Source: Haladaptatus caseinilyticus
Lineage (GTDB): Archaea; Halobacteriota; Halobacteria; Halobacteriales; Haladaptataceae
DNA: 64,000 bases
Assembly (NCBI RefSeq): GCF_026248685.1
Contig: NZ_CP111041.1
Span: 124,001-188,000 of the forward strand
Direction of reading: 5' to 3'
The notes under the pieces were generated by a model. That model worked only from the letters and a program-made list of their open reading frames with translations, had not been told where the DNA came from and made no database searches. This document shows positions 10,760-59,321 of this stretch, piece by piece; position 1 is the stretch's first letter; the number at the start of each line of letters is the position of its first letter. The translations under genes and the position numbers were made by a program.

Positions 10760-10760
10760 A

Positions 10761-19118: not shown

Positions 19119-19820
19119 ATGGGAGGTACGATCGTCGAAGTTAGTATCGCTGCCGAAGAGTTTGCACTCAAGCACACGTTGGCCACGCTCGAAACTGTGA
19201 CTATCGAAGTCGAACAGACAATTACGACCGATCGAGATGGCCTGATGCCATTCATATGGTTCAATACAGACGATAGTCTTGCGCTTGAGTGCGCGTTGAC
19301 CGACGACGACAGTGTTACTGACTTTCACCTAATCGCAGATTTCGAGACAGAATCTCTCTATCAACTTACGTGGAACGATCGGGTCAACCATCTGGTTAGG
19401 GTTCTTGCCGAAGAAAACGGAGCAGTCCTCGCTGCTACTGGTAAAGACGACACTTGGCATCTTCGGTTATTGTTCGCTGATCATGATGCAGTGCGACGCA
19501 CATCTGAATACTGTAAAGAGGAGGGGGTTCCATTAGAAATTCAGAATATCCAGGAATTTACAAGAAAATCTCAGACCCGATTCGGACTTACAAAGTCACA
19601 GCAACGAGCACTACAACTTGCCACTACTCACGGCTATTATTCGGTGCCTCGCGAAGCCACTGCAGATGACTTGGCTGAAAAACTTGATGTCTCACATCAA
19701 GCGCTCTCTGAACGACTGCGGCGTGCCCATGGCAATCTGGTCGACTATGTGTTCCTAAATCGAGTCGGTACACCAGAGGTAGCAGAAACAGATTCCGACA
19801 AAGACGTGGCCTCTGAGTGA
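19119..19820 (+). CDS. HTH_10 (bacterio-opsin activator-type) transcriptional regulator
   Basis: 233 residues. The N-terminal part (TIVEVSIAAEEFALKHTL; LMPFIWFNTDD; FHLIADFETESLYQL) is the GAF-like domain associated with Bat proteins. The C-terminal 55 residues (FGLTKSQQRALQLATTHGYY, then SVPREATADDLAEKLDVSHQ and ALSERLRRAHGNL) form the HTH_10 domain. The family controls diverse haloarchaeal genes; the target here is unknown. Convergent with the HalOD1 gene (14-bp gap). Close paralogues are at 31459 and, as a ruin, at 28947. Confidence 0.88.
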   Translation: MGGTIVEVSIAAEEFALKHTLATLETVTIEVEQTITTDRDGLMPFIWFNTDDSLALECALTDDDSVTDFHLIADFETESLYQLTWNDRVNHLVRVLAEENGAVLAATGKDDTWHLRLLFADHDAVRRTSEYCKEEGVPLEIQNIQEFTRKSQTRFGLTKSQQRALQLATTHGYYSVPREATADDLAEKLDVSHQALSERLRRAHGNLVDYVFLNRVGTPEVAETDSDKDVASE

Positions 19821-31089: not shown

Positions 31090-31386
31090 ACCCACGCGCT
31101 CATTACTGTTGTACTGTTTGGAGTTGCGAACTGTCTTCGAGCGTCGGTACCGGGCAACCCAACCACCGCAGCCCTCACAGACAGGCCACCAGTTTAGCGT
31201 GGTGAAGCGTTTGCAGTATTGGGTTGTGTCAAGGCGGTCCGTCCAGCAGGTGAATGTTGTGCCGTGAGCTGCGTCGCCGAACTCGTGGTACTGCCAAGCG
31301 CGAATGAGTTCGTGGCGAACGGTGGAGCTGAATTGTTGCCACCCGTGCTGTTCGTAGGCACTCCAGGTCAGCGCGATCGTGGTTTA
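31090..31386 (-). pseudogene. SprT-like zinc metallopeptidase fragment 1
   Basis: The minus strand reads TIALTWSAYEQHGWQQFSST, VRHELIRAWQYHEFGDAAHG, FTCWTDRLDTTQYCKRFT and VCEGCGGWVARYRRSKTV. This is the SprT pattern with the zinc helix followed by a zinc ribbon. The second His of HExxH is Arg here (HELIR), so it would be inactive. The N-terminal part is missing; no start. Confidence 0.7.
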
Positions 31387-31458
31387 AAATCGATTTCGAA
31401 TGACAGTGTTGCTGGTCGTTGGATGCTCACCGAGTTTATCCCTTTAGCTGACGAAGAG

Positions 31459-32145
31459 ATGGCTATGACGGGGACAGTGGTCGAAGTTGAGATTCCCATT
31501 AATGAGTTTGCGCTCCGACAAACCGTCTCTAAGTTCCCATCCATTGACTTTGAGATCGAACGAGCTGTCGCTCACGATGCTGATCGGGTAATGCCATTCA
31601 TCTGGGTACAGAGCGATGAAATCGATCGTGACGAATTTGAAACCGTTATTGGAAACGATCCAAGCCTAGAGCAGTTTGACCTGATTGCTGATTTAGACGA
31701 AGAATGGCTCTATCGAATGGAATGGATTACTGAAATCGAAGCCCTCATCCACATTCTCGTTGAAGAGCAGGGAACAATCCTCTCCGCGGTCGGTTCGCAA
31801 GCAGGGTGGAATCTTCGGATCTTGTTCGCAGACCGAGACGCGCTTTCCCGGACATTTGAGTACTGTAAAACCCAGGGATTAACATTCAACATCATAAACA
31901 TATATCAGTTTGAAGAAGGACGTGAGGGTCGGTTGGGACTAACAGAAGAACAACAAGACACTCTCATATCCGCGTTCGAGGCAGGCTATTTCGATATCCC
32001 ACGCGAGGCAAATGCAGAAAAGCTAGCTGCTGATCTCGGCATTTCTCATCAGGCGGTTTCTGAGCGCCTGCGACGTGGGTACGCCAATCTAATACAAAAC
32101 ACGCTCATTATCGGGGAGGGTGCTGGAAAAGAGCAGTCCAAATAG
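31459..32145 (+). CDS. HTH_10 (Bat-type) transcriptional regulator
   Basis: 228 residues from ATG 31459; the open frame upstream overlaps the SprT fragment and is not conserved. The GAF-like part has TGTVVEVEIPINEFALRQTV and VMPFIWVQSDE. The HTH_10 part is LGLTEEQQDTLISAFEAGYF, then DIPREANAEKLAADLGISHQ and AVSERLRRGYANL. Paralogue of 19119. It sits between a SprT fragment and a SWIM relic, perhaps inserted between them. Confidence 0.87.
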   Translation: MAMTGTVVEVEIPINEFALRQTVSKFPSIDFEIERAVAHDADRVMPFIWVQSDEIDRDEFETVIGNDPSLEQFDLIADLDEEWLYRMEWITEIEALIHILVEEQGTILSAVGSQAGWNLRILFADRDALSRTFEYCKTQGLTFNIINIYQFEEGREGRLGLTEEQQDTLISAFEAGYFDIPREANAEKLAADLGISHQAVSERLRRGYANLIQNTLIIGEGAGKEQSK

Positions 32146-36136: not shown

Positions 36137-37216
36137 TCAGTTAACCTCTTTTGCAAGGGATATCGCTTCATCAAATGACAACTTTTCTTGAGAGTCCGTT
36201 TGAAGTAGTTCTAATAATCGATCGATTTGTCCTTCAGTTGCTTGTTTATCGCACCGTTCTAAGAGCCGTCGTGCGGCACCCCGGCCAGTAGCGTTACCGA
36301 AGAGAAGTTGCCGTTTGCCACCGAACTGAGCTGGGTCGAACGGCTCGAATGTGCTTGGTTTGTTTAGCATCGCTGCGGTGTGAAGACCGGACTCATGGGA
36401 AAACACTTCCCTTCCGAGGAGCGATTTTTCGGGTTTTACATCTTCGTCCAAGGTAGCGAGAACACTCTTAGTGACGGGAAGTAGCTTGTTTTCGGTGACG
36501 TCGATATCAATTGATTCGTCTCCAACGATAGTCGCAGCAACGAACTCTTCTAGGGCAGCATTTCCAGCTCGCTCACCAAGACCAGCAACTGAGAGATCCA
36601 CTTTACCGACGCCAAGACGACCAGCCGCAAGTGCATTTGCTGTCCCAACACCGAGATCGTCATGGAAATGGGCACCGATATTGGAGAGTTCGGTGTTGAG
36701 TGCTTTGAGGTGTTTAACGACATCTGCTGGGGTTCGACTACCTACTGTATCAGCAATCGTATAGAGTTCTGCATCAACGGCATCAAACAAGTCATCAAGA
36801 GCGGCGGGCTCTGTTCGGAATCCGTCCATCGCACTAAAGTGTACTTCGACACCGTGATCGTGGGCGACGGTAGCAGCCTCAATTACTTTCTCCGACAACT
36901 CGTTTCGATCTATTCCAAGGATGTGGTCAAGTTGGCGGTCACTAGTTGGGGCGAATAGATCAACCACGTCTACCCCGGCTTCGATTGCAGCCATCACATC
37001 GCTCGGAATTGAACGGGCGATTCCAGTAGTGGAGGCGTTCAAATCAGTGCGATCACAGACTGCTGCTGTTCGGCTATCTGCAATTGGAAACCCAATTTGT
37101 ATGTAGTCCACGCCGAGCGAATCCAATTCGCGCGCGGCGGAGATCTTCTGATCTACTGAGTAGTGAACACCGGGCCGTTGCTCGCCTTCGCGTAGCGTAA
37201 GATCAAGCAGTTTCAT
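36137..37216 (-). CDS. Isopropylmalate/citramalate/homocitrate synthase family enzyme
   Basis: 359 residues, a TIM-barrel of the HMGL-like group. LLDLTLREGEQRPGVHYSVD holds the Arg-Glu-Gly-Glu start, IGAHFHDDLGVGTANALAAG the metal-binding His pair, VAGLGERAGNAALEEFVAA the loop typical of synthases, and VFSHESGLHTAAML the LeuA-like end. It lacks the leucine-sensing C-terminal domain of LeuA, so it is closer to citramalate or homocitrate synthases, which condense acetyl-CoA with a 2-oxo acid. Last gene of the ABC/CoA-transferase operon; 4-bp overlap with the CoA-transferase. Confidence 0.8.
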   Translation of the reverse strand: MKLLDLTLREGEQRPGVHYSVDQKISAARELDSLGVDYIQIGFPIADSRTAAVCDRTDLNASTTGIARSIPSDVMAAIEAGVDVVDLFAPTSDRQLDHILGIDRNELSEKVIEAATVAHDHGVEVHFSAMDGFRTEPAALDDLFDAVDAELYTIADTVGSRTPADVVKHLKALNTELSNIGAHFHDDLGVGTANALAAGRLGVGKVDLSVAGLGERAGNAALEEFVAATIVGDESIDIDVTENKLLPVTKSVLATLDEDVKPEKSLLGREVFSHESGLHTAAMLNKPSTFEPFDPAQFGGKRQLLFGNATGRGAARRLLERCDKQATEGQIDRLLELLQTDSQEKLSFDEAISLAKEVN

Positions 37217-38526
37217 ACGACCCCCTCCTCTTGAAGACGTTCAATTCGTTCCGTATCATAGCCACATGCTGCAAGGACAGCGGCGGTATCCTCACCTAGT
37301 GCCGGCGGGTCGGTGGACTTGACTCGATCGAATCCAGTGGTGTGTGCTGGGAATCTTGGAGTCAGTATACGATCACCGTCGCCCTCCGTTGCTCGGACTT
37401 CGCTCAGAGCATCGGTTGCTTCGAGATGCGGGTCAGTAGAGACATCGGCAGTATCGTTTACCGGTGCCACCGGAACACTAGCCTCTTGTAGGCATTCGAC
37501 TAGATCCGTTGCGGTGTACTCTTCACAAATCGATTGGACGTGCTCGTTGAGTACTTCACGGTTTTCGAGTCGATTTGGAAGCGTATCGAATCGTTCGTCT
37601 GTATGCAGATCAACGTCGAGTGCCTCACAGAAGCGAAGCCATTGCTTCTCTGACGACGGCCCGATGAACACCCATTGGTCATCCTTGGACTGAAAGACAT
37701 CGTAGGGTGCCCATCCAGGATGACTTGCACCCATTGGCTCAGGAATGTCATCGTACGCTTGGGTGTACGCTAGCCAGTATCCCATCAGTGCAACAGTACT
37801 CTCAAAGAGTGGGACGGTTATGTGCTGACCTTCGCCGGTAGCATCGCGGTGGCGAATTGCTGCCAATATTGTGAGCGCACCATACAGTGACGCCGCCATA
37901 TCTGAGAGACTCGTGCCAGAACGAACGGGAGGAGTAGCGGGTTGACCCGTAACGCTCATCACTCCAGAAAGTGCCTCAGCAACGGGGTCAAGCGCCGGGA
38001 ATTTCTCGTACGGTCCTGGATTAAACCCTTTTATTGAGCAGTAAACTAACGCGTCGTTGAACCGATTCAGATCGTCGTAGCCAACGTCAAGACGATCAGC
38101 AGTTCCCGCCGCAAAGTTTTCGACGAGAACATCGGCTTCGCGAACGAGATCACGGAATACAGCATTTCCTTGGTCAGATTTAAGATCGATAGTGATACTG
38201 AGTTTGTTTCGATTGACGTAGTTGAATGAGCTATTGCCGATTGGACTCGAATCACGGACAGCGTCGCCGTGCTCGGGGTGTTCAACTTTAATGACTTCTG
38301 CACCCAGATCAGCTAATAACATTGAACAGAACGGTCCAGCAATAATATGACCGAGTTCGAGAACTGTAACATCCGAGAGGGGATGACCATCCGCACCGGG
38401 AAGTAAGTCAGAGGAAATTCGACCACCATCCGTTCGAATGTTACAATCGTTATAAGAATTGAATGAGTTTTGCTTATCAGTGTCGTCTGATTGACTGTTC
38501 GTCGTAGGTTGATAATCGTCTGTCAT
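37213..38526 (-). CDS. Class III CoA-transferase (CaiB/BaiF family)
   Basis: About 437 residues from ATG 38524-38526, with a polar 40-residue leader. VTVLELGHIIAGPFCSMLLA, LGAEVIKVEHPEHGDAVRDS and NKLSITIDLKSDQGNAVFRD are the N-terminal CaiB signatures. LVENFAAGTADRLDVGYDDL contains the motif next to the catalytic Asp. The enzyme moves CoA between carboxylic acids. In this operon it could activate an imported acid or a breakdown product. It lies 20 bp after the ABC ATPase gene. Confidence 0.85.
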   Translation of the reverse strand: MTDDYQPTTNSQSDDTDKQNSFNSYNDCNIRTDGGRISSDLLPGADGHPLSDVTVLELGHIIAGPFCSMLLADLGAEVIKVEHPEHGDAVRDSSPIGNSSFNYVNRNKLSITIDLKSDQGNAVFRDLVREADVLVENFAAGTADRLDVGYDDLNRFNDALVYCSIKGFNPGPYEKFPALDPVAEALSGVMSVTGQPATPPVRSGTSLSDMAASLYGALTILAAIRHRDATGEGQHITVPLFESTVALMGYWLAYTQAYDDIPEPMGASHPGWAPYDVFQSKDDQWVFIGPSSEKQWLRFCEALDVDLHTDERFDTLPNRLENREVLNEHVQSICEEYTATDLVECLQEASVPVAPVNDTADVSTDPHLEATDALSEVRATEGDGDRILTPRFPAHTTGFDRVKSTDPPALGEDTAAVLAACGYDTERIERLQEEGVV

Positions 38527-38546
38527 ATATTTGTTTTTATTAGTGA

Positions 38547-39677
38547 TTACTGCTGTTGTTTCGGGGAGTGATTCGTAAGTTCGCCACCGTGACAAATTGT
38601 CTGTCCGTTGTCATCGAACACGAACAAATCATCCTTGTCAAACCCAACGACGATTTCGTCTCCGTGATTGACGTGACCGAGAGTGGAAGACACGACATCG
38701 ACATTATTACCGGCGGTTGAGTGTCCATGAACGACGAATTCCGTTCCTAGTTGCTCCACAACGTCAACAATCACGGTGAATTGATGCTCACCGGCATCGG
38801 GGGAAAGGTACTGCGGACGGATTCCGAGGGTAATCGGCTGTCCGATGTGGTTCGCAAAGTGATCAACTGGTGCCGAAATCTCGAACCCGTTTCCATCGAG
38901 GACGTATGAGCCGTCGTGTTCGACGACTGTTGTGGGGAGCAGGTTCGTCGAGGGGGTTCCGATAAATCGGCTGACGTACTTCGAGACGGGTCGGTCAAAT
39001 AACTCGCCAGGAGGGGCAAACTGTTCGAGCTGCCCATTATTGAGAAGGACGACCTGGTCACTCATCGTCATTGCTTCCGTTTGGTCGTGTGTTACATAGA
39101 CCATCGTCGCATCGAGTTCCTGATGCAACCGCTGAACCTCAACTCGAAGCTCGGCTTTCAGTTGTGCATCGAGATCGCTCATCGGTTCATCGAGCAGGAG
39201 GATATCTGGGTCTTGAACAAAGGCCGAACCCAATGCCACTCGTTGTTGCTGCCCCCCTGAGAGTTCTGCAGGCATTTTCTCTAACTGCTCGGAGATCTGG
39301 AGTACTGCAGCGGCATCATCGATGCGGCAGTCGCGTTCCTCCTGTGGAACCCCTTGGACCTTCAACCCGTAGCCGATGTTTTGCCGAACGGACATATGTG
39401 GGTACAGTGCGATAGACTGGAAAACCATCGCACAATTTCGATCCTGGGGAGACAGGTCGGTGACATCCTGCTCTCCGAAAGCTATCTGGCCTTGCGAGGG
39501 TGTTTCTAACCCGGCAATCATTCGCAACGTCGTCGTTTTGCCACAACCAGAGGGACCGACAAGCGTTGTGAACGATCCCTCGGGGATCGACAGCGATAAA
39601 TCATCGACGGCGACGTGGACGGTACCGGCGGATCGATACTCCTTGTGAACGGATTCGAGGTGAATTGGACGTGCCAT
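38547..39677 (-). CDS. ABC transporter ATPase, carbohydrate-type (CUT1, MalK/UgpC-like)
   Basis: 376 residues from ATG 39675-39677, which overlaps the permease stop by one base. Walker A GPSGCGKTTT, Q-loop MVFQSIALYPHMSV, ABC signature LSGGQQQRVALGS, Walker B DILLLDEPMSDLDAQ and H-loop VYVTHDQTEAM are all intact. The C-terminal 130 residues form the OB-fold regulatory domain of CUT1 ATPases. It energises the importer encoded upstream. Confidence 0.92.
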   Translation of the reverse strand: MARPIHLESVHKEYRSAGTVHVAVDDLSLSIPEGSFTTLVGPSGCGKTTTLRMIAGLETPSQGQIAFGEQDVTDLSPQDRNCAMVFQSIALYPHMSVRQNIGYGLKVQGVPQEERDCRIDDAAAVLQISEQLEKMPAELSGGQQQRVALGSAFVQDPDILLLDEPMSDLDAQLKAELRVEVQRLHQELDATMVYVTHDQTEAMTMSDQVVLLNNGQLEQFAPPGELFDRPVSKYVSRFIGTPSTNLLPTTVVEHDGSYVLDGNGFEISAPVDHFANHIGQPITLGIRPQYLSPDAGEHQFTVIVDVVEQLGTEFVVHGHSTAGNNVDVVSSTLGHVNHGDEIVVGFDKDDLFVFDDNGQTICHGGELTNHSPKQQQ

Positions 39678-40552
39678 TATTCGAGGCCTCCTACGTTGAA
39701 TCCCTGAAGCAGGTAGTTCTGCAGAAACAGGGCAATGAGAAACGGTGGGATACAAATCAGCAGCGAAACTGCCATTGTCTCTCCCCAGCCGATCGTGACA
39801 CGGTCAAGGAACAGGCTCGCTCCGACCGTGATGGTGTACATTTTGTCGCTGCTCATGACGACGCGGGCCATGGTGAAGTCGTTCCATGCAACCGCAAACG
39901 CGAAGATGGATGCTGAGATGTAACCTGGACGTGCAATTGGAAGAACGACATCCCAGAGTGTACGCGTTCGACTCGCTCCCTTGATCCATGCGGACTCTTC
40001 TAGCGATATTGGAATCGTCTGAAAGTACTGCCACATGAGCCAGATGGTGAACGGTGCAGAAATGCCGGTCAACGCCATCGCGAGCGCGAAGTAGCTATTC
40101 AGTAGCCCGAGCGTGTAGAAGATGACGTAGAGTGGTATCGCCAGTACTATCGGGCTAAACATGTATGCGAACAACACTGCCCGTGCCGCGAGTGTCTTTC
40201 CGGTGAAATCAAAGCGAGTGAGGCCATAGCCTGCTGCTACCGCGAGTGCAGTGGACATCAGCGTCGAACTTGCAGTGACGATAATACTATTTGTGAAATA
40301 GCGAACTGTGTTTGTTTCCTCGAATAGTATCCGGAAGTTTCTGAACGTCACCGAATCGATCAACAAGTGAACCGCCCCACCTTCGAACACTGCTGCGGGT
40401 GATTGTACTGCAATTGCGATCATGATGTAGACTGGAAAAGTCACAAATACGGCCACCAGCAACGCCGTGAGAATCACGGCGATACGTTTTACTCGCTGTT
40501 GAATATGTTGAGGAAGAACCGATCCAGCGGCCCCTTCACCGAACGACATCAA
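39677..40552 (-). CDS. ABC transporter permease (MalG-type)
   Basis: 291 residues, six hydrophobic segments. The EAA loop that docks the ATPase is visible as LEESAWIKGASRTRTLWDVV followed by LPIARPGYIS. It overlaps its neighbours by 4 bp upstream and 1 bp downstream, so all parts are cotranslated. Confidence 0.9.
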   Translation of the reverse strand: MMSFGEGAAGSVLPQHIQQRVKRIAVILTALLVAVFVTFPVYIMIAIAVQSPAAVFEGGAVHLLIDSVTFRNFRILFEETNTVRYFTNSIIVTASSTLMSTALAVAAGYGLTRFDFTGKTLAARAVLFAYMFSPIVLAIPLYVIFYTLGLLNSYFALAMALTGISAPFTIWLMWQYFQTIPISLEESAWIKGASRTRTLWDVVLPIARPGYISASIFAFAVAWNDFTMARVVMSSDKMYTITVGASLFLDRVTIGWGETMAVSLLICIPPFLIALFLQNYLLQGFNVGGLE

Positions 40553-41460
40553 TGAGTCACCTCCTTTTCGGGTTCAAACACGGAGAAATAGACCACGGCC
40601 ACGCCTGCGAGCAGGAAAAACATGATTCCTGCGAGTGCCGTCGCGCCACCGAAGTCAACCGCTTCGAATGCAAGCTCGTATACACGAATAGGTAAGGTAG
40701 TCGTCGCTTTCAGCGGACCCCCTCGCGTCGAGAGGTAGATAATGTCGAACTTGTTGAACATCCAAATTCCTCGTACGAGAAGGATGATGAGGATGGCCCC
40801 ACGCAAGTGCGGAAGGGTGATGTCCCGGAACGCTTGCCATGTCGAGGCGCCCTCAACCCGAGCCCGTTCGTAGAGATTCGGGTCGATGGCCTGCAAGCGT
40901 GCTAAGAGAATGAAAAAGGAAAACGATCCAAATTTCCACACACTGGCGATGACTACCGCGGGCATCGCCCATTTGAGGGTTGAGAAGAACGCAATGGGAT
41001 CCTCAATGTAACCTACTTGAATGAGCCATTGATTGAGAACCCCGACGTTCGGGTCAAGGATGAACTTCCAAATGAAAATGACAACTAGTGTTGGCAGAAG
41101 ATACGGGAAGATCATCATCGTCCGGAGAATACTTCCACCTTGGATCTCTTGATTGACGACAAGCGCTAGCCCAAGGCCGACAAGCAAACTAAGGACGGTA
41201 GACGAGAGGGCATAGACAATACTATGCCACAGGAAAGTCGGAAAGTCGCTGCTCGTTAGGATATCGACGTAGTTCCATAGACCCGTGAATATCGCGGCGC
41301 CAGTCGGATCGTGGAGAAGGCTCATCCAAAGGGCATAGCCAATGGGGATAAGCCAGACGATCGTAAAGAACGCTGCAAATGGGATGAATGTCGCCAATAG
41401 CAGCAACTGCCGTTCGTCAAGGTGAGTGAACGAGGACTTGAGGGAATTTACCGTACTCAT
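40549..41460 (-). CDS. ABC transporter permease (MalF-type)
   Basis: 303 residues with six membrane segments. The EAA loop is YERARVEGASTWQAFRDITL followed by PHLRGAILI. It forms the second half of the membrane channel with the downstream permease. Starts 12 bp after the binding-protein gene. Confidence 0.9.
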   Translation of the reverse strand: MSTVNSLKSSFTHLDERQLLLLATFIPFAAFFTIVWLIPIGYALWMSLLHDPTGAAIFTGLWNYVDILTSSDFPTFLWHSIVYALSSTVLSLLVGLGLALVVNQEIQGGSILRTMMIFPYLLPTLVVIFIWKFILDPNVGVLNQWLIQVGYIEDPIAFFSTLKWAMPAVVIASVWKFGSFSFFILLARLQAIDPNLYERARVEGASTWQAFRDITLPHLRGAILIILLVRGIWMFNKFDIIYLSTRGGPLKATTTLPIRVYELAFEAVDFGGATALAGIMFFLLAGVAVVYFSVFEPEKEVTH

Positions 41461-41472
41461 GGGAGTCAGTGA

Positions 41473-42810
41473 TTAGCCCTGGAGCCCTCGCAGCTTTTTT
41501 GCGACCCAATCGACGGTCTGCTCGGGAGACTTGCCCCCCACGAGCATCTGTTCGGACGATTGACCGAGCACCTGCTGACCGTACGCGTCAGCAGCGACGA
41601 TATTTGGCTGGCCGTTCTTGCCCGTCGCCAGAATTGACGTAAATGCGTCCCAGTTGTTCCGAACGAGATCGAGTACGGCCATATGTTGTTTGATCGTCTC
41701 GTTGTTTTTCACCGCGTCACTGTTCAACATCTTCTTCGTCGGCGGGAACTGGAACAACGGTGCGGAGAGGACAAAGTCCATAAACTTGTCCGATTTGCTG
41801 AAGAAATTCACGAATTTTTTCGCACCCTCTGTTGCCTTGCCATGCTTCCAAACGACGTGGCCCTCCATGTACGCCCACCACTTATCCTGCTTTTTACTGC
41901 TCGGAGCAGGGAATGGCGTTGGAGACAGTTTTTCCACGAGATCTGGTCGATTAGAAGCAATCGTGAGGATTGGCAGTCCACCAACACTCATGATCGCAGC
42001 AGCGTTCTCTTGTTGGAGTGCGGCGATTGCGTCGCCCCATTCCCACCCCGCTCCGTTTGGGGAATACTCAGCCATCTGTTTGATCCATCTGTACGTCTCG
42101 ACGGCGCGCTTTCTGTTGTCACCCTTGTCGATAGTGACTTTGATATTATCGGACGATCCGCTGTAGAGGTTAACACCGTTCTGCCAGTGGTATTGGGTGA
42201 TTTGAGTGTCAGCATTGTTTGTCTGGCCTGATTGTATGACGTATCCTTTGATGTTCTCTTGCTCTGAGACTCGCTTAGCTTCTGATGTCCATTTCTCCCA
42301 CGTCGTGGGGTTCTCATAATAGAGGTCATTACGGTACCACCCCATCAGGGGTTCGACCATGGTCGCGGCAAAGTACGACTCTCCATCGATGTTAACAGGA
42401 TCCGGAAAACCTGTTCCTTGGACTGCGTCACTGACCGGTGCAAGATTACCATTACGCTGGTAACGGTACGCGTCTGCCGACGTGTCGAAGACAACGTCCG
42501 GGGGATTGCCCGCTGCCTTCATTTTCTGTAACTGCTCGTCGGTTGATTTCCCCTTGGACGTATACGTGACTTCGACCGTGTAATCGTGTTTCTTTTCAAA
42601 CTCGGAAATTATCTGGTCGATAACTTTTTTCGAATCGCCACGATCCGAGAGATACTGGATTTTCTTCGACTGGTCACCATTCTGCCCTCCATTTTGCCCT
42701 CCTTTTGACTCGCTGTCGTCCGGTCTACTGGTACATCCTGCAGCGGCGACGACCGATCCGGTTCCAGCTAGTTGGAGAAACCGTCTTCGTGTTGTGGGGT
42801 CATGAGCCAT
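41473..42810 (-). CDS. Tat-exported lipoprotein substrate-binding protein (carbohydrate type)
   Basis: About 445 residues from ATG 42808-42810; a GTG at 42825 is possible. Signal: TTRRRFLQLAGTGSVVAAAG followed by Cys, a twin-arginine lipobox. The mature part has the family-1 solute-binding pattern: IISEFEKKHDYTVEVTYTSK, NPPDVVFDTSADAYRYQ, VEPLMGWYRNDLYYE and WWAYMEGHVVWKHGKATEG. It should capture a sugar, polyol or related ligand outside the cell. First structural gene of the operon. Confidence 0.9.
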   Translation of the reverse strand: MAHDPTTRRRFLQLAGTGSVVAAAGCTSRPDDSESKGGQNGGQNGDQSKKIQYLSDRGDSKKVIDQIISEFEKKHDYTVEVTYTSKGKSTDEQLQKMKAAGNPPDVVFDTSADAYRYQRNGNLAPVSDAVQGTGFPDPVNIDGESYFAATMVEPLMGWYRNDLYYENPTTWEKWTSEAKRVSEQENIKGYVIQSGQTNNADTQITQYHWQNGVNLYSGSSDNIKVTIDKGDNRKRAVETYRWIKQMAEYSPNGAGWEWGDAIAALQQENAAAIMSVGGLPILTIASNRPDLVEKLSPTPFPAPSSKKQDKWWAYMEGHVVWKHGKATEGAKKFVNFFSKSDKFMDFVLSAPLFQFPPTKKMLNSDAVKNNETIKQHMAVLDLVRNNWDAFTSILATGKNGQPNIVAADAYGQQVLGQSSEQMLVGGKSPEQTVDWVAKKLRGLQG

Positions 42811-42881
42811 GTTAATATACGACACCCCTGATGAGAGAAGGTTCTCTCCCCTTCACTTGTTGGCTCTTTAAAAGTCACAGT

Positions 42882-43562
42882 CTAATTCATTTTCTTTATT
42901 GGAGGTTCACGGCTGACTTGGTGCTCGTCTCCACCAAACTCCTCACTCTGCACGCATTGGTTCAAAACGTTTCTAAGCAGTGTCCGCTCTGCTTTTCGGA
43001 GATGTTCGAGAAAGGTAGTGTGACTAATTCCTAGTTCAGCAGCCAGCGATTCTGCATCCATCTCACGGGGCCACTCGTAATACCCACCGTCGAGAGCAGT
43101 ATTGATTACCTCTGCTTGTCTATCCGAGAGGAGCCCTTCCGAGGCGCGATACGGTGTGAGCTGTGTAAGTTGTACAGTTCCGATCTCACGGAGTTCACCG
43201 ACGATATTTCGGAGGTCTTCTCGTCGGAAGACAATGATATTGAACACTCGCTGTGTGCCACTCACTCGGTCCCACCATTGGAGCATGCCATGATTCCGTC
43301 TGATAATGGGAAGAGCCCCACAGGAACGCTTGGTGAGTTTGATATGGGTCGTGTCAATCTGCTTGACGTGTTTTACCTGCTCAGAATTTTCGAATGCGTT
43401 GATAAACTCCTCAACTTTGTTCTCAGCATTGATGACGAAATTAATATACTCATCGTCGAGAACCTCCTCGTGATTTGCGGTGAACGACGTATTCCAGCGA
43501 CTAGTAACCTCACTCAGGATACAGTCCGTTTGCAGGTCTAAGTAGAGCTTTGCCTTTAACAT
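42882..43562 (-). CDS. HTH_10-type transcriptional regulator at the head of the ABC operon
   Basis: 226 residues. The C-terminal domain is EGLLSDRQAEVINTALDGGY, then YEWPREMDAESLAAELGISH and TTFLEHLRKAERTLLRNVL: HTH_10. The N-terminal 150 residues are a divergent sensor part without the usual PFIW motif. It lies about 70 bp upstream of the binding-protein gene on the same strand, so it is a likely local regulator. Confidence 0.83.
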   Translation of the reverse strand: MLKAKLYLDLQTDCILSEVTSRWNTSFTANHEEVLDDEYINFVINAENKVEEFINAFENSEQVKHVKQIDTTHIKLTKRSCGALPIIRRNHGMLQWWDRVSGTQRVFNIIVFRREDLRNIVGELREIGTVQLTQLTPYRASEGLLSDRQAEVINTALDGGYYEWPREMDAESLAAELGISHTTFLEHLRKAERTLLRNVLNQCVQSEEFGGDEHQVSREPPIKKMN

Positions 43563-45998: not shown

Positions 45999-46367
45999 TT
46001 AGAATGAAGGTAGCGAAAAAATCGTGACGATGAGTCCGGCGATGAAGTATATTGAAGGTCCAACATACCTCCAGAGTGGATCATCAACCCGGAAAAAATG
46101 CGTCAGGATGGCCCCTATCATCGTGGCGACTATTAAGACCCCACCAAGAATAGCGAGAATCGGCGCGAATAGAAGACCGACGAGCAACCCGAGACCGCCA
46201 ATAACTTCGATGCCACCGGTAACGAATCGAAACCACTCTGGGTAGCCGTACCGCTTAAAATCCTTTTTCACAATGTCAACGCCGATAATCTTCACGCTGC
46301 CTGCACCGACCATGATGAGTCCGAGCAGTCCTTGCACAATAGGGATGGCCGTTTCAAGTATATTCAT
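45999..46367 (-). CDS. DoxX-family membrane protein
   Basis: 122 residues, four membrane helices. VQGLLGLIMVGAGSVKIIG, YPEWFRFVTGGIEVIGGLGL and LVGLLFAPILAILGGVLIVA are DoxX-like. Divergent from the HTH_10 gene at 46482, which probably controls it. Members take part in redox or thiosulfate reactions or stress; role here unknown. Confidence 0.8.
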   Translation of the reverse strand: MNILETAIPIVQGLLGLIMVGAGSVKIIGVDIVKKDFKRYGYPEWFRFVTGGIEVIGGLGLLVGLLFAPILAILGGVLIVATMIGAILTHFFRVDDPLWRYVGPSIYFIAGLIVTIFSLPSF

Positions 46368-46481
46368 GGCTATTCACTACTTGCTACGCTAAGCGAGACC
46401 ACGGATTTGTGCGTGAATACATTCACCCTTTTAAGTCACTGCGAGTCTGTTAAACCACTCGTCATCCAACTTTGGCGTGGT

Positions 46482-47108
46482 ATGCCTCGTGTACACCTGA
46501 AAACCAAGATTGGGGCAGACGACGATAATTTCCTGGCTAGTGTCTCAACCGATTTTTCGAGCACCGAGTTTAAGATTCTAACTAGCAATCCTACAGACAA
46601 CGGCGTACTCGAAATCATAGAAGTAACGACATCAGAAAGGGACGCCATCATTCGCCGGTTCGACGACGCACCGGAGGTGTACTCGTCCGAAGTTCTCCAT
46701 TCCGACGAGGAAATAGTATTGATCCAGTTGATATTTTCGATGCCGTCAACGTATGAGGCAAGGCTTGCGACGGGGAACCTTCCACGATTTCCGATCATTA
46801 TCCGAGATGGGTGGTTATCAAGTGAACTAATCGGTTCACAGGAGCAGTTGTCGGAATACACGACCGAGTTATCGGCGGCTGACATCCCCTATGAGATTCT
46901 ATCGCTCACGCAATCATACGGAGCGAGCGGACTCCTCACCGAGCGTCAACGAGAGTTCATTACTGAAGCGGTTGAACGCGGCTATTACGACAGTCCACGT
47001 GGCTGTACGCTCGTCGAGCTTGCAGAAAGGTTCGGAGTCAGTCAATCGGCAGCTAGTGGCGTTCTGCATCGAGGTGAAGGCCAAATCATCAAGGAGTTCA
47101 TCTCATAG
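46482..47108 (+). CDS. HTH_10-type transcriptional regulator
   Basis: 208 residues from ATG 46482; the longer open frame from 46332 overlaps the divergent doxX start. The C-terminal HTH_10 is GLLTERQREFITEAVERGYY, then DSPRGCTLVELAERFGVSQS and AASGVLHRGEGQIIKEF. The N-terminal part is a GAF-like sensor. Probably controls the divergent DoxX gene. Confidence 0.83.
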   Translation: MPRVHLKTKIGADDDNFLASVSTDFSSTEFKILTSNPTDNGVLEIIEVTTSERDAIIRRFDDAPEVYSSEVLHSDEEIVLIQLIFSMPSTYEARLATGNLPRFPIIIRDGWLSSELIGSQEQLSEYTTELSAADIPYEILSLTQSYGASGLLTERQREFITEAVERGYYDSPRGCTLVELAERFGVSQSAASGVLHRGEGQIIKEFIS

Positions 47109-48157: not shown

Positions 48158-48311
48158 CGTACCATACCTCAATCAACATTTGTATTTATATTTGTATTTA
48201 TACGAAGGTGAGTCGGGATCGCCGAGATGTTGTCATAACAAAATAAGCTTGAACAATAATAGTAATATCGATGGCATAAATCTTTTATTCTCGTCAACCG
48301 GCGTTAGATTC

Positions 48312-49424
48312 GTGGTTGACGAGATTGAGAATGCGACGGTAGATAATGCTGTCGAGCGCGTGTTGACAGGTAAACAGCTAGACCGGCGCGATGGATTGGC
48401 GCTCATCGCACAACCAGTTGAGGAGCTCGCATTCGCTGCTGACTACGTACGCTCGCAGTTCGGCGACGATACTGTCGATGCCTGCTCGATCGTAAATGCA
48501 AAAGCGGGCAACTGTGCAGAAGACTGTGGATTCTGTGCGCAATCAGTCCATTTCGACACCGATATCGACACATACGGATTTCTCGATCCGGAAGAAATAC
48601 TCGCTGCCGCAACGCGAGCTGAACGTGATGGCGCCCAACGGTTTGGTATTGTTGTCGCTGAAAAAGGTGTTTCCAAGGAACAACGTCCGAAGGAATGGCG
48701 AGAGGTACTCCGAGCTATTCGAATGGTTCGCGACGAAACCGACGTAGAGGTCGACGCTTCACTTGGAATTCTTACAGAAGAGGAAGCTCAAATCCTTGCG
48801 GAAGAAGGAATTAATCACTATAACCACAATATTGAAACTTCACCGCGATTCTTCCCAGAAATCGTTGATAGCCACTCCTTTGAGGATCGAGTCAAAACCC
48901 TAGAAATAGCAAAAGACGCAGGAATGGACTTGTGTGCTGGCGTTATTCTCGGTATGGGTGAGGCTCCCACGGATCGAGTGGATGCGGCCATTGCTCTCCA
49001 GAGTATTGGTGTGTCTTCACTCCCAGTAAACATCCTCAATCCTGTTGAGGGGACAACACTCGGCGACAAATTCGGAGATTCTGCAGACATTTCCACCGAA
49101 GAGATTATCAAAACCATCGCTGTCTACCGGCTTCTCCACCCTGAAGCCAGAGTACGACTGACCGGTGGTCGTGAGGTTAATCTCGGCAAAGACGAACAAC
49201 ATTTGCCATTTGAGGCTGGTGCCGACGGTATACTGACCGGAGATTACCTCACGACTTCTGGCCAGTCTCCCGGAGGAGACATCGAAGTGATAGAGCGTGC
49301 TGGGTTGGAACCCAACCTAGAAGTAAATGAGTATGACATAGAGGCTGTCAAGAAACGTACGAGAGAGCAATCCTCAGTCGAAACGGCAGCAGATGCGAGT
49401 AACAAAATAAAACTAGACGACTAG
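48312..49424 (+). CDS. bioB: Biotin synthase BioB
   Basis: About 370 residues from GTG 48312, preferred because conserved sequence starts there; the frame is open from 48180. Radical-SAM Cys motif NCAEDCGFCAQS (CxxxCxxC). Other BioB hallmarks: DACSIVNAKAGNCAEDC, EGINHYNHNIETSPRFFPEI, AGMDLCAGVILGMGEAPTDR and LPVNILNPVEGTTL. It inserts sulfur into dethiobiotin. First gene of bioB-bioU-bioF-bioD. Confidence 0.95.
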   Translation: MVDEIENATVDNAVERVLTGKQLDRRDGLALIAQPVEELAFAADYVRSQFGDDTVDACSIVNAKAGNCAEDCGFCAQSVHFDTDIDTYGFLDPEEILAAATRAERDGAQRFGIVVAEKGVSKEQRPKEWREVLRAIRMVRDETDVEVDASLGILTEEEAQILAEEGINHYNHNIETSPRFFPEIVDSHSFEDRVKTLEIAKDAGMDLCAGVILGMGEAPTDRVDAAIALQSIGVSSLPVNILNPVEGTTLGDKFGDSADISTEEIIKTIAVYRLLHPEARVRLTGGREVNLGKDEQHLPFEAGADGILTGDYLTTSGQSPGGDIEVIERAGLEPNLEVNEYDIEAVKKRTREQSSVETAADASNKIKLDD

Positions 49425-49425
49425 C

Positions 49426-50493
49426 ATGGACGAAATCAATTTCGCGGTACTCGGGACAGGTGGTATCGGTCGACGAACGCTTGAAGTTTCGAAGGACAAG
49501 GAGGCGTTAACACCCGTTGCGGCGTGTGACCGTCACGGAGTCGCCATCGACCACGACGGGCTCGATGTAGATGAATTACTGAAGGCGACGGAGGGAAATA
49601 TCGCGAGCGATCCGGAAAATCGTGATATAGCTACAGACGGCGGTTCGACGGCTGTAAAAGGTGGGATCAAGCAAACTGGAGAAAATGGAGGAGTTATTGC
49701 GTCCTCTCAGGCTGATTCTTCGGAGACACCGATTGGCGATATTATTGCAGAGAGCGGACAGATCGACGCCGTACTTATCGCACTTCCGAACTTCGAACAC
49801 GACTTCATTCCACGGGTCGCCGACCGTTTTGCGGAGGCCAACTATTCTGGCGTTCTCGTCGACGTGCTGAAGCGCTCACGAGTCATCACCATGCTCGACG
49901 ACCGAATGGAGACTTTTAAGGAAAAGGGGATCACGTTCGTCTGTGGTGCCGGTGCGACACCCGGTTTCCTTACTGGTGCAGCGGCTATCGCAGCCCAGTC
50001 ATTCGTTGAGATCGAGGCGGTCGAAATCTGGTGGGGTGTCGGTCTCAAATCCGGTTATAAGGACAATCGTGGCACCGTTCGCGAAGATATCGCTCATCTG
50101 CCGGAGTACAACATTCAGGACGCCCGCGACATGAGTGACGGGGAGATTGAGGCAATCATTGACGAGCATGATGGCGTCCTTGAATTCGAGGACATGGAGC
50201 ACGCCGATGACATACTCTTGGAACGAGCCGGTATCTGTAACGCCGAAGACGTGACTGTCAGTGGCATTCTTGACGTCACATCTGATGAAAAACCCACAAC
50301 GACAACTGTGCGCGTCACTGGGAAAACCTTCGACGGAGAAACGGGAACCAACACATTCCAGCTCGACAATAACACGAGTATGGAGGCGAATGTTAACGGA
50401 CCAGCCCTTGGGTATTTGAAAACCGGTGTTCGTCGCAACCAGGCGGGTGAATATGGGGTCTTTGGGCCTGTAGATTTGATGCCCGGATTCTAA
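49426..50493 (+). CDS. bioU: BioU-like (S)-8-amino-7-oxononanoate synthase, suicide enzyme replacing BioA
   Basis: 355 residues. Rossmann start INFAVLGTGGIGRRTLE, then LIALPNFEHDFIPRVADRFA, VLVDVLKRSRVITML and FVCGAGATPGFLTGAAAIAA. In cyanobacteria and some haloarchaea BioU turns 7-keto-8-aminopelargonate into the diamine using its own lysine side chain as amino donor, once per molecule. Lys149 in DVLKRSR is my candidate for that lysine; not proven by alignment. Starts 1 bp after bioB; no bioA in the cluster, consistent with this role. Confidence 0.8.
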   Translation: MDEINFAVLGTGGIGRRTLEVSKDKEALTPVAACDRHGVAIDHDGLDVDELLKATEGNIASDPENRDIATDGGSTAVKGGIKQTGENGGVIASSQADSSETPIGDIIAESGQIDAVLIALPNFEHDFIPRVADRFAEANYSGVLVDVLKRSRVITMLDDRMETFKEKGITFVCGAGATPGFLTGAAAIAAQSFVEIEAVEIWWGVGLKSGYKDNRGTVREDIAHLPEYNIQDARDMSDGEIEAIIDEHDGVLEFEDMEHADDILLERAGICNAEDVTVSGILDVTSDEKPTTTTVRVTGKTFDGETGTNTFQLDNNTSMEANVNGPALGYLKTGVRRNQAGEYGVFGPVDLMPGF

Positions 50494-51750
50494 ATGTACG
50501 GCGACACATACCACGGGACGGGTTCGAATGCTGAGGCAGACCGGGATAACAAACGGGGATTCGACCTATCAGTACGTCTCGCCGAACGCGAGCAACAAAC
50601 TCTCAAGCGAAATCTTACACCGGTTGATCAGGTTGCCGCATGCAGTCACATGGCTCCCGATCCGAAGGGATTGCCGCCTGAATATGGTGATGAGAATCAA
50701 TTGGTGTTTGCGGCGAATAACTATCTTGGGCTTACGGTTGACAAACGAGTCCAACAGGCTGCCGCTACCGCAGCACGAGAAATTGGAACTGGTGCAGGCG
50801 CGAGCCGGCTCGTGACTGGAGACACACAAATCCACCGTGCCCTTGAACGCGACATCGCCGAGACCAAGAACACTGAGCGATCGCTCGTGTTTTCATCGGG
50901 CTATGTAACTAACGTCGGTGTACTCTCCGCACTGAATCCTGATGTTATCATTTCTGATGAGCTAAATCACGCGAGCATCATCGATGGCTGCCGGCTGACT
51001 AATGCGGAGACATTAGTGTACGACCACTGCGATCCCGAGAGCCTCCATGTGACACTCGAGCAGCGAGCACGCGAGGGAAATTCCGACGAGTCATGGCTAA
51101 TCGTCACTGACTCCGTCTTTAGCATGGATGGTGACATAGCACCGTTACGGAAGATCTGCACTATTGTTGAAGAGTTCGACGCATGGCTGATGGTTGACGA
51201 AGCACATGCGACTGGGCTGTACGAGGACGGTGGCGGTATTGTCCAACACGAAGGGCTCTCAGATCGGATTCACATCCAGATGGGTACACTTTCGAAAGCC
51301 TTTGCGAGTCAGGGTGGGTATGTTGCTGGTTCCGAGGATCTAATCGAGTACCTGCTAAACGCCGCCCGTTCGTTCGTGTTCTCGACAGGGCTTGCACCTC
51401 CGGCTGCAGCGGCGGCACGCGAAGCGTTGTCTATCGCTCGCAGCGGTGATCGCTCTGCGCAACTATGGAGGAATGTGGAATGGCTACGCGATGGACTCGA
51501 AGAGATGGGATATGAAGTCTGGGGGGAAACCCAGATCCTACCGGTCATTATTGGTAATCGGGAAGACACGATGGCTTTGGATGATCGTCTGCGTGAGCAA
51601 AACGTCGTTGCTCCAGGGATGCGACCACCAACAGTACCTGAAGGAACCAGTCGGATTCGCGTAGCACCGATGGCAAGTCATACTAACGAGGACATTGACC
51701 GCTGTCTGACGGCCTTCCGAAAAGCTGGTCGAGACCTAGATTTGCTATGA
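50494..51750 (+). CDS. bioF: 8-amino-7-oxononanoate synthase BioF
   Basis: 418 residues, a PLP enzyme of the alpha-oxoamine synthase family. NQLVFAANNYLGLTVDKRVQ, TGAGASRLVTGDTQIHRALE, DELNHASIIDGCRLTNAETL, LMVDEAHATGLYEDGG and the PLP lysine in MGTLSKAFASQGGYVAG. It joins pimeloyl-thioester and alanine. Its ATG directly follows the bioU stop. Confidence 0.93.
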   Translation: MYGDTYHGTGSNAEADRDNKRGFDLSVRLAEREQQTLKRNLTPVDQVAACSHMAPDPKGLPPEYGDENQLVFAANNYLGLTVDKRVQQAAATAAREIGTGAGASRLVTGDTQIHRALERDIAETKNTERSLVFSSGYVTNVGVLSALNPDVIISDELNHASIIDGCRLTNAETLVYDHCDPESLHVTLEQRAREGNSDESWLIVTDSVFSMDGDIAPLRKICTIVEEFDAWLMVDEAHATGLYEDGGGIVQHEGLSDRIHIQMGTLSKAFASQGGYVAGSEDLIEYLLNAARSFVFSTGLAPPAAAAAREALSIARSGDRSAQLWRNVEWLRDGLEEMGYEVWGETQILPVIIGNREDTMALDDRLREQNVVAPGMRPPTVPEGTSRIRVAPMASHTNEDIDRCLTAFRKAGRDLDLL

Positions 51751-52418
51751 CCGATGATTTTGTAGTCGTTGGAACTGACACAGGCGTTGGAAAAACTGTC
51801 GTAACCGCGGGTCTCGTGGGGATGCTTCGAACAGATGGTATTGACGCAAAGGCGATTAAGCCATGCCAAACTGGCTATCCCCCAGACGACGACGCTGGAT
51901 TCGTTGCTGAGGCCTGTGGGACTGAAGCTGCGGCCGCCTGTCTTCGGCGGTTGAAACCGGCTCTCGCTCCCGAAGTGGCAGCCGAGCTAGAAGGTGTGAC
52001 CCTCTCCTATGCGAAGATACTGAACGAGTGTGAACAGGCGATTGCCGACGCGGAATGCGGTGTCGTCGAAGGTATCGGTGGTCTTCGAGTCCCATTAGCT
52101 GACGGTCGGGAAGTAATCGACCTTGTAGCTGACTTGGATTTGTCCGCGGTGGTGGTTGCTCGATCAGGGCTCGGGACACTGAATCATACGATGTTGACTG
52201 TTGAGGCGCTCCGTCAACGGCAGACTCCGATTCTCGGGATCGTTCTCAACGAGTATGACGGTACAACTGTCGTCGAACGGACGAATCCGAAGATGATCGA
52301 GAAAATGACTAAGCAAGAAGTATGGACTCTTCCACCGTTAGACCTGACTGACCCAAGGGCAGCTGTCGAAGGTGCCACTGAGTATCTTTCGCAATCTCTT
52401 CTCGAAGACTTCGAATAG
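51747..52418 (+). CDS. bioD: Dethiobiotin synthetase BioD
   Basis: 223 residues. P-loop VGTDTGVGKTVVTAGLVG, substrate loop AIKPCQTGYPPDDDAGF, GVVEGIGGLRVPLADGREV and LGTLNHTMLTVEALR. It closes the ureido ring with CO2 and ATP. Overlaps bioF by 4 bp; last gene of the operon. Confidence 0.93.
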   Translation: MTDDFVVVGTDTGVGKTVVTAGLVGMLRTDGIDAKAIKPCQTGYPPDDDAGFVAEACGTEAAAACLRRLKPALAPEVAAELEGVTLSYAKILNECEQAIADAECGVVEGIGGLRVPLADGREVIDLVADLDLSAVVVARSGLGTLNHTMLTVEALRQRQTPILGIVLNEYDGTTVVERTNPKMIEKMTKQEVWTLPPLDLTDPRAAVEGATEYLSQSLLEDFE

Positions 52419-57051: not shown

Positions 57052-57459
57052 TTACTTCGGTAGTAGTTTGAAGGTGAGACGAACATTGTCCGAGGAGAGT
57101 TTCGGTGTATCAAGACAGACCCGGCGTCCGGCCGCAATTGCTTCAGACTCACACGCGACACGTCCCATGAGTCGTGGACCTTCGTCTAACGTGATGATAG
57201 CTGATACGATTGGGGCGTCTGATGCGAATCGCTGGGTTGGGCGGTGAATACTTGTATAACCGTACACCGTTCCAGTGCCTGCAATCGATTTGAATTCCCA
57301 TTCGTCTGAGTAACAGTCTGGACAGTATCGGCGTGGAGGATGATAGACGTGGTCACATGCCTGACAGTGGGCAATACAAACATCACCGTTAGCTACACGC
57401 TGCCAGTATTGGCGTTCGTATTCGGTCGTCGGTGTCGGAATAGGCTTGTTAGTCGGCAT
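57052..57459 (-). CDS. DUF35 zinc-ribbon/OB-fold protein, partner of the thiolase-like protein
   Basis: 135 residues from ATG 57457-57459; ATG 57468 is possible. CIAHCQACDHVYHPPRRYCP, then DCYSDEWEF gives four zinc Cys. GTGTVYGYTSIHRPTQRF starts the OB-fold. DUF35 subunits bind thiolase-like or aldolase partners and channel acyl-CoA. The start overlaps the end of the thiolase-like gene, so the two are coupled. Confidence 0.85.
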   Translation of the reverse strand: MPTNKPIPTPTTEYERQYWQRVANGDVCIAHCQACDHVYHPPRRYCPDCYSDEWEFKSIAGTGTVYGYTSIHRPTQRFASDAPIVSAIITLDEGPRLMGRVACESEAIAAGRRVCLDTPKLSSDNVRLTFKLLPK

Positions 57460-58612
57460 GACGTTCACCTCGTTCGAGGATCGCTACTGCTTGCGTTGAG
57501 AAGATCCCCCCATTTCCATGGACGAGTGCCGTCGATGCGTCTTCGACTTGCGCCGCTTCGGCACGTCCTTGTAGTTGACGGATTGCTTCGGTAATATGAA
57601 AGATCCCACAGGGCATTCCCGGATGTGCTTGGGCGAGCGCCCCGCCATGAGTGTTGAGTGGCCATTTTCCAGTTAATCGAAGAGCACCACTGTCAACGAG
57701 GTCACCACCGTTCCCGCGTTCACAGAAGCCGAGGTCTTCGAGGATTCGAAGGACGGTAATCGTAAAACAATCGTATATTTGAAGAACGTCGATATCAGCA
57801 TGACTGACAGCTGCTTCGGCCATTGCTTGCTGTCCTGCTTTTACCGCTCCCGTTTCTTCGAATGATGGCATCTGGGAGATGTGGTCGTGGGTATGTCGTG
57901 CACCGAACCCTTTCAATCGAACTGGTACTTGATCGATCTCGGCGGCATTTTCTTCAGTGGTTACGATGAATGCCGCTCCGCCATCGGAGATAAGAGCGCA
58001 CTGATCTGCGGTCAATGGAGTTGCAACCATCGGAGCGTCGAGAATCTCATCAGCTGATTTTGCTTCCTGTCGGTGTGCACGTTCCGCCCGTTGTAACGAC
58101 GCATGCTCATGAGCGATGGCTGCGATTTTGGCGAGTTGTTTCCGTGTCGTCCCAAACGTATCGAGGTGCCAGTTTGCGACATGGGCGTAGAGCGAGGGAA
58201 CGATGTTCGCGGGTTCCTCGAACTCGCTGACACTGTCGGATAGTTCTTCGATAACTGTTCGTGGTCCGATGTCAGAATGAAGAGCATCTGCAGCGACAAT
58301 GAGGATCGTTTCGGCCTGTCCATTTTCAATTGCATTGGCCGCTCGGTTGATCGAGTTTACGTGGGATGCACCACCGACGCCGGTGAGTTCTGCAAAATTG
58401 AGTGGAGCAATTCCAAGATATTCGATCAGCCGAGGGAGTGGAAACCGCTCTGTTCGAAAGGGTGCAGTCGCAATAAGCCCGTCAATATCGTCTGGTTCGA
58501 GATCGACGTCACGCAAGGCTTCCTGTGTCGCCCACATGTTCAGCTCTTCGTATCTATAGTCGAGTGACTCTCCGACGCTCGTTTCACCATACCCGATTAG
58601 CACTGGGTTCAT
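57449..58612 (-). CDS. Thiolase-superfamily protein lacking the catalytic cysteine (Ltp2-like aldolase candidate)
   Basis: 387 residues from ATG 58610-58612. The thiolase fold is clear: PVLIGYGETSVGESLDYRYE, AIENGQAETILIVAADALHS, DGGAAFIVTT and LNTHGGALAQAHPGMPCG. At the position of the nucleophilic Cys (usual CxSG) it has GGASH, and the late CxG is GNGG. Thiolysis is therefore unlikely. With a DUF35 partner it resembles the Ltp2-DUF35 retro-aldolase complexes of steroid side-chain breakdown. The true reaction is unknown. Confidence 0.75.
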   Translation of the reverse strand: MNPVLIGYGETSVGESLDYRYEELNMWATQEALRDVDLEPDDIDGLIATAPFRTERFPLPRLIEYLGIAPLNFAELTGVGGASHVNSINRAANAIENGQAETILIVAADALHSDIGPRTVIEELSDSVSEFEEPANIVPSLYAHVANWHLDTFGTTRKQLAKIAAIAHEHASLQRAERAHRQEAKSADEILDAPMVATPLTADQCALISDGGAAFIVTTEENAAEIDQVPVRLKGFGARHTHDHISQMPSFEETGAVKAGQQAMAEAAVSHADIDVLQIYDCFTITVLRILEDLGFCERGNGGDLVDSGALRLTGKWPLNTHGGALAQAHPGMPCGIFHITEAIRQLQGRAEAAQVEDASTALVHGNGGIFSTQAVAILERGERHAD

Positions 58613-59321
58613 TGGTCTCAATCGCATACGATACCGATCCCAAAGAAGGTTAGAGGTAGTCATTGATGCTAGAACGTATTTGAAAGTACCTATCAGCGGT
58701 ACTGCCATACGAAATAGATACCATATTTCTGATGGAACATGGTGGTACTAATTGGGTTGGTTTCGGTGGACCGTGTCATTTCTTCGAGATGGGGCGTCGC
58801 GAATGTGACCCTCTATTACAACGGTATAATCGCCCATACCGAAGATACATTCTACATCCTCTGAGAAGTAGACGTTCAGGAAATCGTCGTAGAAATGGAT
58901 GCGATCATACAAAGCCGTTGCAATACATCTTTGTCCCGTGTTCCTAATTGGGTTCGAGTCGATCCCTCGTTTAGGACAGAAATTGCACACTCTCCGGAGA
59001 TCACACAGGAATTATACCCACAAGCCGCAGTCCCGCAGGTGACTTTTCGCCCCCGGAGGGGTGGGACGCAGATTGGGATTGAACTTGAAACCCATTCAGA
59101 TAACAGCGACAGTGACCAGCTAGCAAACTGTGACTGGTATGGGCATAGTGAACTTCGGTGTTGTCCTTGTGTGCGATTCAGGTGCCGCGACCTCTCTGAG
59201 TATAGTGCAAATTAGCTATAAGTGAGTGTGTGTGCTGAACATCTGTGCCAATTTATGCAACTACATGCCGGTTTTTCTCCGTTTATCTCTGGTTAAATGG
59301 CTGTGGAATGTATACTATAGT
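58613..59321. other. Region with no supported gene
   Basis: 709 bp. A minus-strand frame at 58748-58990 (DDFLNVYFSEDVECIFGMGD and onward) is open for 80 codons but its start is Cys-rich and unlike its neighbours. I regard it as chance or relic. Nothing else stands out. Confidence 0.3.

Follow-up and report, generated by a model that had tools for sequence, protein, structure and literature searches.

A haloarchaeal operon joining an exchangeable importer to a class III CoA-transferase and a LeuA-like enzyme, with a candidate role in organic-acid degradation

In itaconate degradation (ict-ich-ccl), and likewise in the system of succinyl-coenzyme A (CoA):malate/citramalate CoA-transferase and malyl/citramalyl-CoA lyase, an acid is activated by a CoA-transferase and then cleaved at a carbon-carbon bond to give acetyl-CoA and a 2-oxo acid. 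A binding protein of the tripartite tricarboxylate type can be found near such modules (PMC12290011), and work cited in PMC5592240 gives (S)-malate and (S)-citramalate as substrates of class III transferases. Here we analyze a seven-gene operon of Haladaptatus caseinilyticus whose plan resembles itaconate or citramalate degradation but with another lyase family and another regulator (PMC12290011, PMC5592240). The operon occupies positions 36137-43562, minus strand, of a 64,000-nucleotide stretch (contig NZ_CP111041.1, positions 124,001 to 188,000; hereafter the window) from a 557-kb contig; the genome measures 4.8 Mb. It encodes, in order, an HTH_10 regulator, a solute-binding protein, two permeases and an ATPase of a CUT1-type ATP-binding cassette (ABC) importer, a class III CoA-transferase (CaiB) and an enzyme of the DRE-TIM group that we call LeuA-like. 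Compared with modules of a CoA-transferase and CitE, the operon has the LeuA-like enzyme at the lyase position, no enoyl-CoA hydratase, an HTH_10 regulator and a CUT1 importer. A preliminary description of this DNA, made from the sequence alone, could not match the gene set to a known pathway, and we too found neither a description of the set nor a matching pathway in the open-licence literature.

The operon is very likely catabolic. We propose, tentatively and as a reading that falls somewhat short of probable, that CoA is attached to an imported acid, probably a diacid resembling 2-alkylmalate, and that the LeuA-like enzyme then splits the product into acetyl-CoA and a 2-oxo acid; we infer both the substrate and the direction of the reaction.

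Constant core and exchangeable importer

Among 391 Halobacteria genomes sampled, 75 encode a relative of the LeuA-like enzyme (E<=1e-80) and 33 encode a relative of the binding protein (E<=1e-40). Seventeen further genomes of the sample have the complete set of regulator, binding protein, two permeases, ATPase, CaiB and LeuA-like enzyme; in four of these (L045-L048) the LeuA-like gene runs convergent to the other genes. Several Haloferax species carry the operon, among them Haloferax gibbonsii, Haloferax lucentense and Haloferax alexandrinus. The possibility, raised in the preliminary description, that the gene order is unique to this genome is therefore false. An intact LeuA-like gene adjoins the importer in 28 of the 33 genomes with the binding protein, spanning genera of different families. 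The five exceptions are a contig end within CaiB, a broken LeuA, two broken importers, and genome G323, where the importer and CaiB operon lacks LeuA and a lone LeuA-like gene lies elsewhere (L180, L069). Conservation within the set is highest for permease 2 (73-86% between genera of the clade; ratio of nonsynonymous to synonymous substitution rates, dN/dS, 0.03). A scan of genome contigs gave two close haloarchaeal relatives among the matches listed, the other listed matches being at most 38% identical; going by these matches, which are no proof, the data suggest that the LeuA-like clade may be confined to Halobacteria.

We read 39 LeuA-like loci, a non-random set from the top of the hit list, as 20-kb neighbourhoods. 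A CaiB gene lies within the same 20 kb at 35 of the 39. The HTH_10 regulators of the module form one clade whatever the importer and are 34-74% identical to the window copy, against 16-25% for HTH_10 proteins outside this clade; three more HTH_10 regulators in the window (19119-19820, 31219-32145 and 46332-47108) also fall outside it (16-20%). The constant part of the module is the LeuA-like enzyme, CaiB and this single HTH_10 clade, and the importer is the variable part. The window locus has a CUT1 ABC importer; TctA/TctB/TctC takes this role at five loci (L054, L060, L061, L063 and L064), and three TctABC loci have an adjacent HTH_10 gene. A sodium:solute symporter is used at L053, L055 and L081, and an NMT1-type ABC importer lies beside LeuC/LeuD-like genes in the Natronorubrum daqingense copy. 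These LeuC/LeuD-type dehydratase genes, located on a plasmid (L084, 11146-12904) next to CaiB and the LeuA-like gene, share only 34-40% identity with their biosynthetic counterparts in the window genome. At seven loci (L066, L067, L068, L072, L082, L087 and L088) we find A and B subunits of a caprolactamase/hydantoinase-like enzyme and an isochorismatase-family hydrolase (3557-8184 at L068), conserved beside CaiB, the LeuA-like gene and HTH_10. Such loci are possibly clusters for the degradation of cyclic amides or imides, and their hydrolases would yield an open-chain acid. The swapping of CUT1, TctABC, symporter and NMT1-type importers, together with lactam/imide hydrolase or dehydratase neighbours, points by association to a carboxylic acid and not a sugar as the substrate, with an organic acid as the shared denominator of the loci.

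The catabolic regulator-importer-CoA-transferase-LeuA-like unit of the preliminary description is thus conserved, with the modification that its importer varies. That description also reasoned that regular occurrence of the last two genes elsewhere without the transporter would count against a common pathway. They do so occur, yet usually in the company of the same HTH_10 clade and of a different acid importer or enzymes that produce acids, and this gives the notion of a pathway module a sharper form.

The same genome holds a second copy of the module (L053, contig C6, 337301-357300; locus positions 5418-10580), consisting of a sodium:solute symporter, HTH_10, CaiB and a LeuA-like protein 48% identical to the window copy. 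Only four class III CoA-transferases are encoded in the whole genome. Two adjoin the two LeuA-like genes of this clade, and a third sits in a parallel operon (L184, contig C5, 448000-464000; locus positions 4326-13247) with HTH_10, SBP_bac_5, a CitE/RipC-like lyase and the permease and ATPase of an Opp-type (oligopeptide-type) ABC importer. Because the parallel operon has a CitE/RipC-like lyase in that place, the LeuA-like enzyme holds the position of a known acyl-CoA lyase. The CaiB-CitE operon is seldom seen, its lyase occurring in 3 of 194 genomes, so this is an analogy within this genome and not a widely conserved counterpart.

Proposed reaction sequence and its alternatives

Under the cleavage proposal, a binding protein exported by twin-arginine translocation (Tat) and the CUT1-type importer would take in a carboxylate, as importer swapping suggests. 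CaiB would then put CoA on the acid, probably from succinyl-CoA or acetyl-CoA, and a retro-Claisen reaction of the LeuA-like enzyme would split the resulting ester into acetyl-CoA and a 2-oxo acid, with the HTH_10 protein as the probable dedicated regulator. Isopropylmalate synthase forms a bound 2-alkylmalyl-CoA intermediate that is subsequently hydrolysed, and it is this hydrolysis that makes the forward reaction irreversible. With the CoA ester delivered by a CoA-transferase dedicated to this task, the same active site could work in reverse, and the likeliest substrates would then be citramalate and other diacids of the 2-alkylmalate type, or acids from which these are formed. This model accounts for the pairing of CaiB with the LeuA-like enzyme, the carboxylate importers and the LeuC/LeuD-like neighbour. 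A more specific version, possible but more doubtful, is that a branch of the isopropylmalate synthase family specific to haloarchaea has turned into a CoA-dependent 2-alkylmalyl-CoA lyase. A class III CoA-transferase dedicated to it would hand it the intermediate of its own reaction, and it would reverse the first leucine-type step in an undescribed route of organic-acid degradation with interchangeable importers.

The transferase chemistry is suggested by family and by a conserved residue. CaiB (37213-38526, 437 amino acids) is, by its match to positions 1-366 of 366 of PF02515 (2.2e-114; 383 bits against a cut-off of 23), a member of the class III CoA-transferase family. Its ALDPVAEA region is conserved and aligns with the Asp of oxalate, formyl-CoA and succinate-hydroxymethylglutarate CoA-transferases; we take this Asp to be catalytic. 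The transferases that it matches best use oxalate, formyl-CoA, mesaconate and hydroxymethylglutarate; the scores lie below the equivalog cut-offs where models exist, and CaiB misses all NCBIfam equivalog cut-offs. Its best NCBIfam match is succinyl-CoA:mesaconate CoA-transferase of the haloarchaeal methylaspartate cycle, a member of the same class III family, but the score is 268 bits against a cut-off of 700 and no mesaconyl-CoA hydratase or methylaspartate genes are adjacent. Citramalate is not used by the mesaconate enzyme (PMC5592240).

The LeuA-like enzyme (36137-37216, 359 amino acids) consists only of an HMGL-like barrel (PF00682, 1.6e-54) and HCS_D2 (PF22617, 2e-14). The leucine-binding regulatory domain and leu/ilv context are absent, and a genuine copy lies elsewhere beside ilv/leu-type genes; the preliminary description was right that there is no feedback domain and needs correcting in that the catalytic second domain, HCS_D2, is kept. 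The protein reaches no curated NCBIfam equivalog or subfamily cut-off for 2-isopropylmalate synthase (NF002085, 274 vs 517 bits; TIGR02090, 244 vs 485; leuA_bact, 187 vs 599), homocitrate synthase (nifV, 240 vs 463; LysS, 225 vs 414), citramalate synthase (TIGR00977, 111 vs 450) or 3-hydroxy-3-methylglutaryl (HMG)-CoA lyase (PRK05692, 34.6 vs 246). Maximum-likelihood trees set its clade apart from all other sequences on a long branch and with full support. Haloarchaeal isopropylmalate synthase branches next to it, and the grouping of the remaining sequences has 81% support.

The metal and catalytic residues R9, Q13, H183, H185, N219 and H279 are kept, with R9, H183, H185, N219 and H279 invariant. 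Glu10, however, stands in place of the metal Asp, a replacement shared with Lys-type homocitrate synthase; this Glu, the loss of GKHSGR and an SG(L/I)HTAAM motif are specific to the clade. The LeuA of the leu/ilv cluster of this genome (L085) shares the fold, metal site and catalytic His, whereas the LeuA-like enzyme is only ~33% identical to it, departs from it in the regulatory domain, metal Asp and GKHSGR, and is encoded with an importer and a CoA-transferase. Homocitrate synthase (Lys20/NifV) and citramalate synthase (CimA) belong to the same DRE-TIM Claisen-condensation group and have a similar two-domain fold, but the LeuA-like enzyme falls far under their equivalog cut-offs, and the Arg of the (V)RFxxED motif common to three solved homocitrate synthases is His126 here. 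A kinship to Lys-type homocitrate synthase, considered from REGEQ and DxFR motifs, is unsupported by the tree.

A Glu/Tyr pair (E227, Tyr399) of methylthioalkylmalate synthase has been studied as important (PMC11532901). At these positions the LeuA-like clade and genuine haloarchaeal isopropylmalate synthase have Met and Phe, or other hydrophobics. We rejected loss of the pair as a sign of lost condensation chemistry because the genuine leu/ilv-cluster enzyme of this genome is also Met/Phe, and the pair is not used as evidence of changed chemistry. Met/Phe is found in the genuine isopropylmalate synthase of this genome (L003/L085) and at L096, L137 and L094, and also in a Bathyarchaeota sequence.

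Several points weigh against the cleavage proposal. The direction of reaction is beyond what sequence can show. Judged from the AlphaFold model (pLDDT, its predicted confidence, 93), the overall fold appears closer to condensing enzymes than to HMG-CoA lyase: methylthioalkylmalate and homocitrate synthases match full-length (Z ~39), whereas HMG-CoA lyases align mainly to residues 1-271 (Z ~28-30). Subgroups with the CaiB and LeuA-like pairing can share only ~30% identity, which leaves room for different substrates in different importer classes. Sugars or glycerol phosphates are the usual cargo of CUT1 importers, and in the literature as searched we found no assay for any enzyme of the LeuA-like clade.

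The main alternative is a forward condensation: CaiB would convert the imported acid to a CoA ester, and the LeuA-like enzyme would join that acyl-CoA (or acetyl-CoA) to a 2-oxo acid to give a 2-alkylmalate for metabolism. The full-length fit in fold and domain content to condensing enzymes, the intact catalytic His and metal site, and the isopropylmalate synthase branch next in the tree all agree with this. However, an acetyl-CoA-dependent condensation needs no CoA-transferase, a CitE-type lyase stands at that position in the parallel operon of the same genome, and downstream enzymes for processing an alkylmalate are missing at most loci. We consider forward condensation unlikely.

We give a decidedly small chance to catabolism of the 3-hydroxy-3-methylglutarate type, in which CaiB would act as a succinyl-CoA:HMG CoA-transferase and the LeuA-like enzyme would have converged on HMG-CoA lyase activity, releasing acetyl-CoA and acetoacetate. 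CaiB does align well with succinate-hydroxymethylglutarate CoA-transferase (E 8e-56), and HMG-CoA lyase shares both the PF00682 superfamily and the retro-Claisen chemistry proposed here. Yet the LeuA-like enzyme misses the lyase model by a wide gap, differs in C-terminal architecture and motifs, having the GERAGN motif and HCS_D2 of condensing enzymes, and is matched by lyase structures mainly over its first 271 residues and at lower Z. It is very improbable that this is a sugar uptake operon with the last two genes as functionally unrelated passengers: the importer is CUT1-type by all family models, but the LeuA-like gene stays beside it in the 28 genomes counted above, and the CaiB/LeuA-like pair and regulator persist with quite different importers. 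Slimmest of all is the chance that CaiB is an acyl-CoA racemase or epimerase and the LeuA-like enzyme acts on a CoA ester made elsewhere, since alpha-methylacyl-CoA racemases of the same family match at E ~1e-27 but CoA-transferases score far better (1e-62 to 1e-56) and share the aligned Asp region.

If the cleavage proposal is true, a second, unrelated lyase family serves the CoA-transferase/lyase degradation of branched diacids, and a biosynthetic Claisen enzyme has been turned to catabolism. It would also give a function to genes that many haloarchaea, including the 75 sampled genomes above, carry under the annotation "citramalate synthase" or "LeuA family", and would caution against a default annotation of haloarchaeal CUT1 importers as sugar transporters.

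Gene layout and neighbouring genes

The seven co-directional genes lie at the coordinates and belong to the families given in the preliminary description, as coordinates and Pfam searches confirm. The bacterio-opsin-activator-like HTH_10 regulator (42882-43562, 226 amino acids; PF04967, 4.9e-20) is followed by the SBP_bac_1 extracellular solute-binding protein (41473-42810, 445 amino acids; PF01547, 2.2e-20), the UgpA/MalF-like permease 1 (40549-41460; BPD_transp_1, PF00528, 9.1e-19; best NCBIfam model UgpA, below cut-off), the GlcU/MalG-like permease 2 (39677-40549; PF00528, 3.2e-13) and the MalK/UgpC-like ATPase (38547-39677, 376 amino acids; ABC_tran, PF00005, 3.6e-34, with OB_MalK, PF17912, and TOBE, PF08402). 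A binding protein, two permeases and a MalK-type ATPase with OB/TOBE domains identify the importer as CUT1-type. The binding protein carries a Tat-type lipoprotein signal (TRRRFLQLAG...AAGC), read from the sequence; it has only weak sequence matches in the PDB, and its predicted structure (pLDDT 33) is unusable for ligand inference.

The closest named relative is Haladaptatus salinisoli (LeuA-like protein 88% and binding protein 93% identical), and the starts of the ATPase, MalG-like permease, CaiB and binding-protein genes were taken by homology from its annotated plasmid copy. With these starts the spacings from the regulator to the LeuA-like gene are 71, 12, -1, -1, 20 and -4 base pairs; overlaps of 1-4 and gaps of 12-71 base pairs are as expected for one predicted transcript. 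Gene lengths equal those of the H. salinisoli counterparts, except for the LeuA-like gene (359 vs 358 amino acids). Between the two species dN/dS is 0.03-0.13 across all seven genes, a range that indicates purifying selection on each. The flanking C69 peptidase and universal stress protein genes are not conserved with the operon and are excluded from the gene set.

Elsewhere in the window, 57449-58708 on the minus strand encodes a thiolase-domain protein of the acetyl-CoA acetyltransferase/lipid-transfer type that scores under all curated NCBIfam cut-offs. A biotin cluster, bioB-bioU-bioF-bioD, occupies 48180-52418. Its BioU-like protein (49426-50493) reaches 315 bits where the cut-off is 600, with a match that begins only at residue 94, and its N-terminal part looks divergent.

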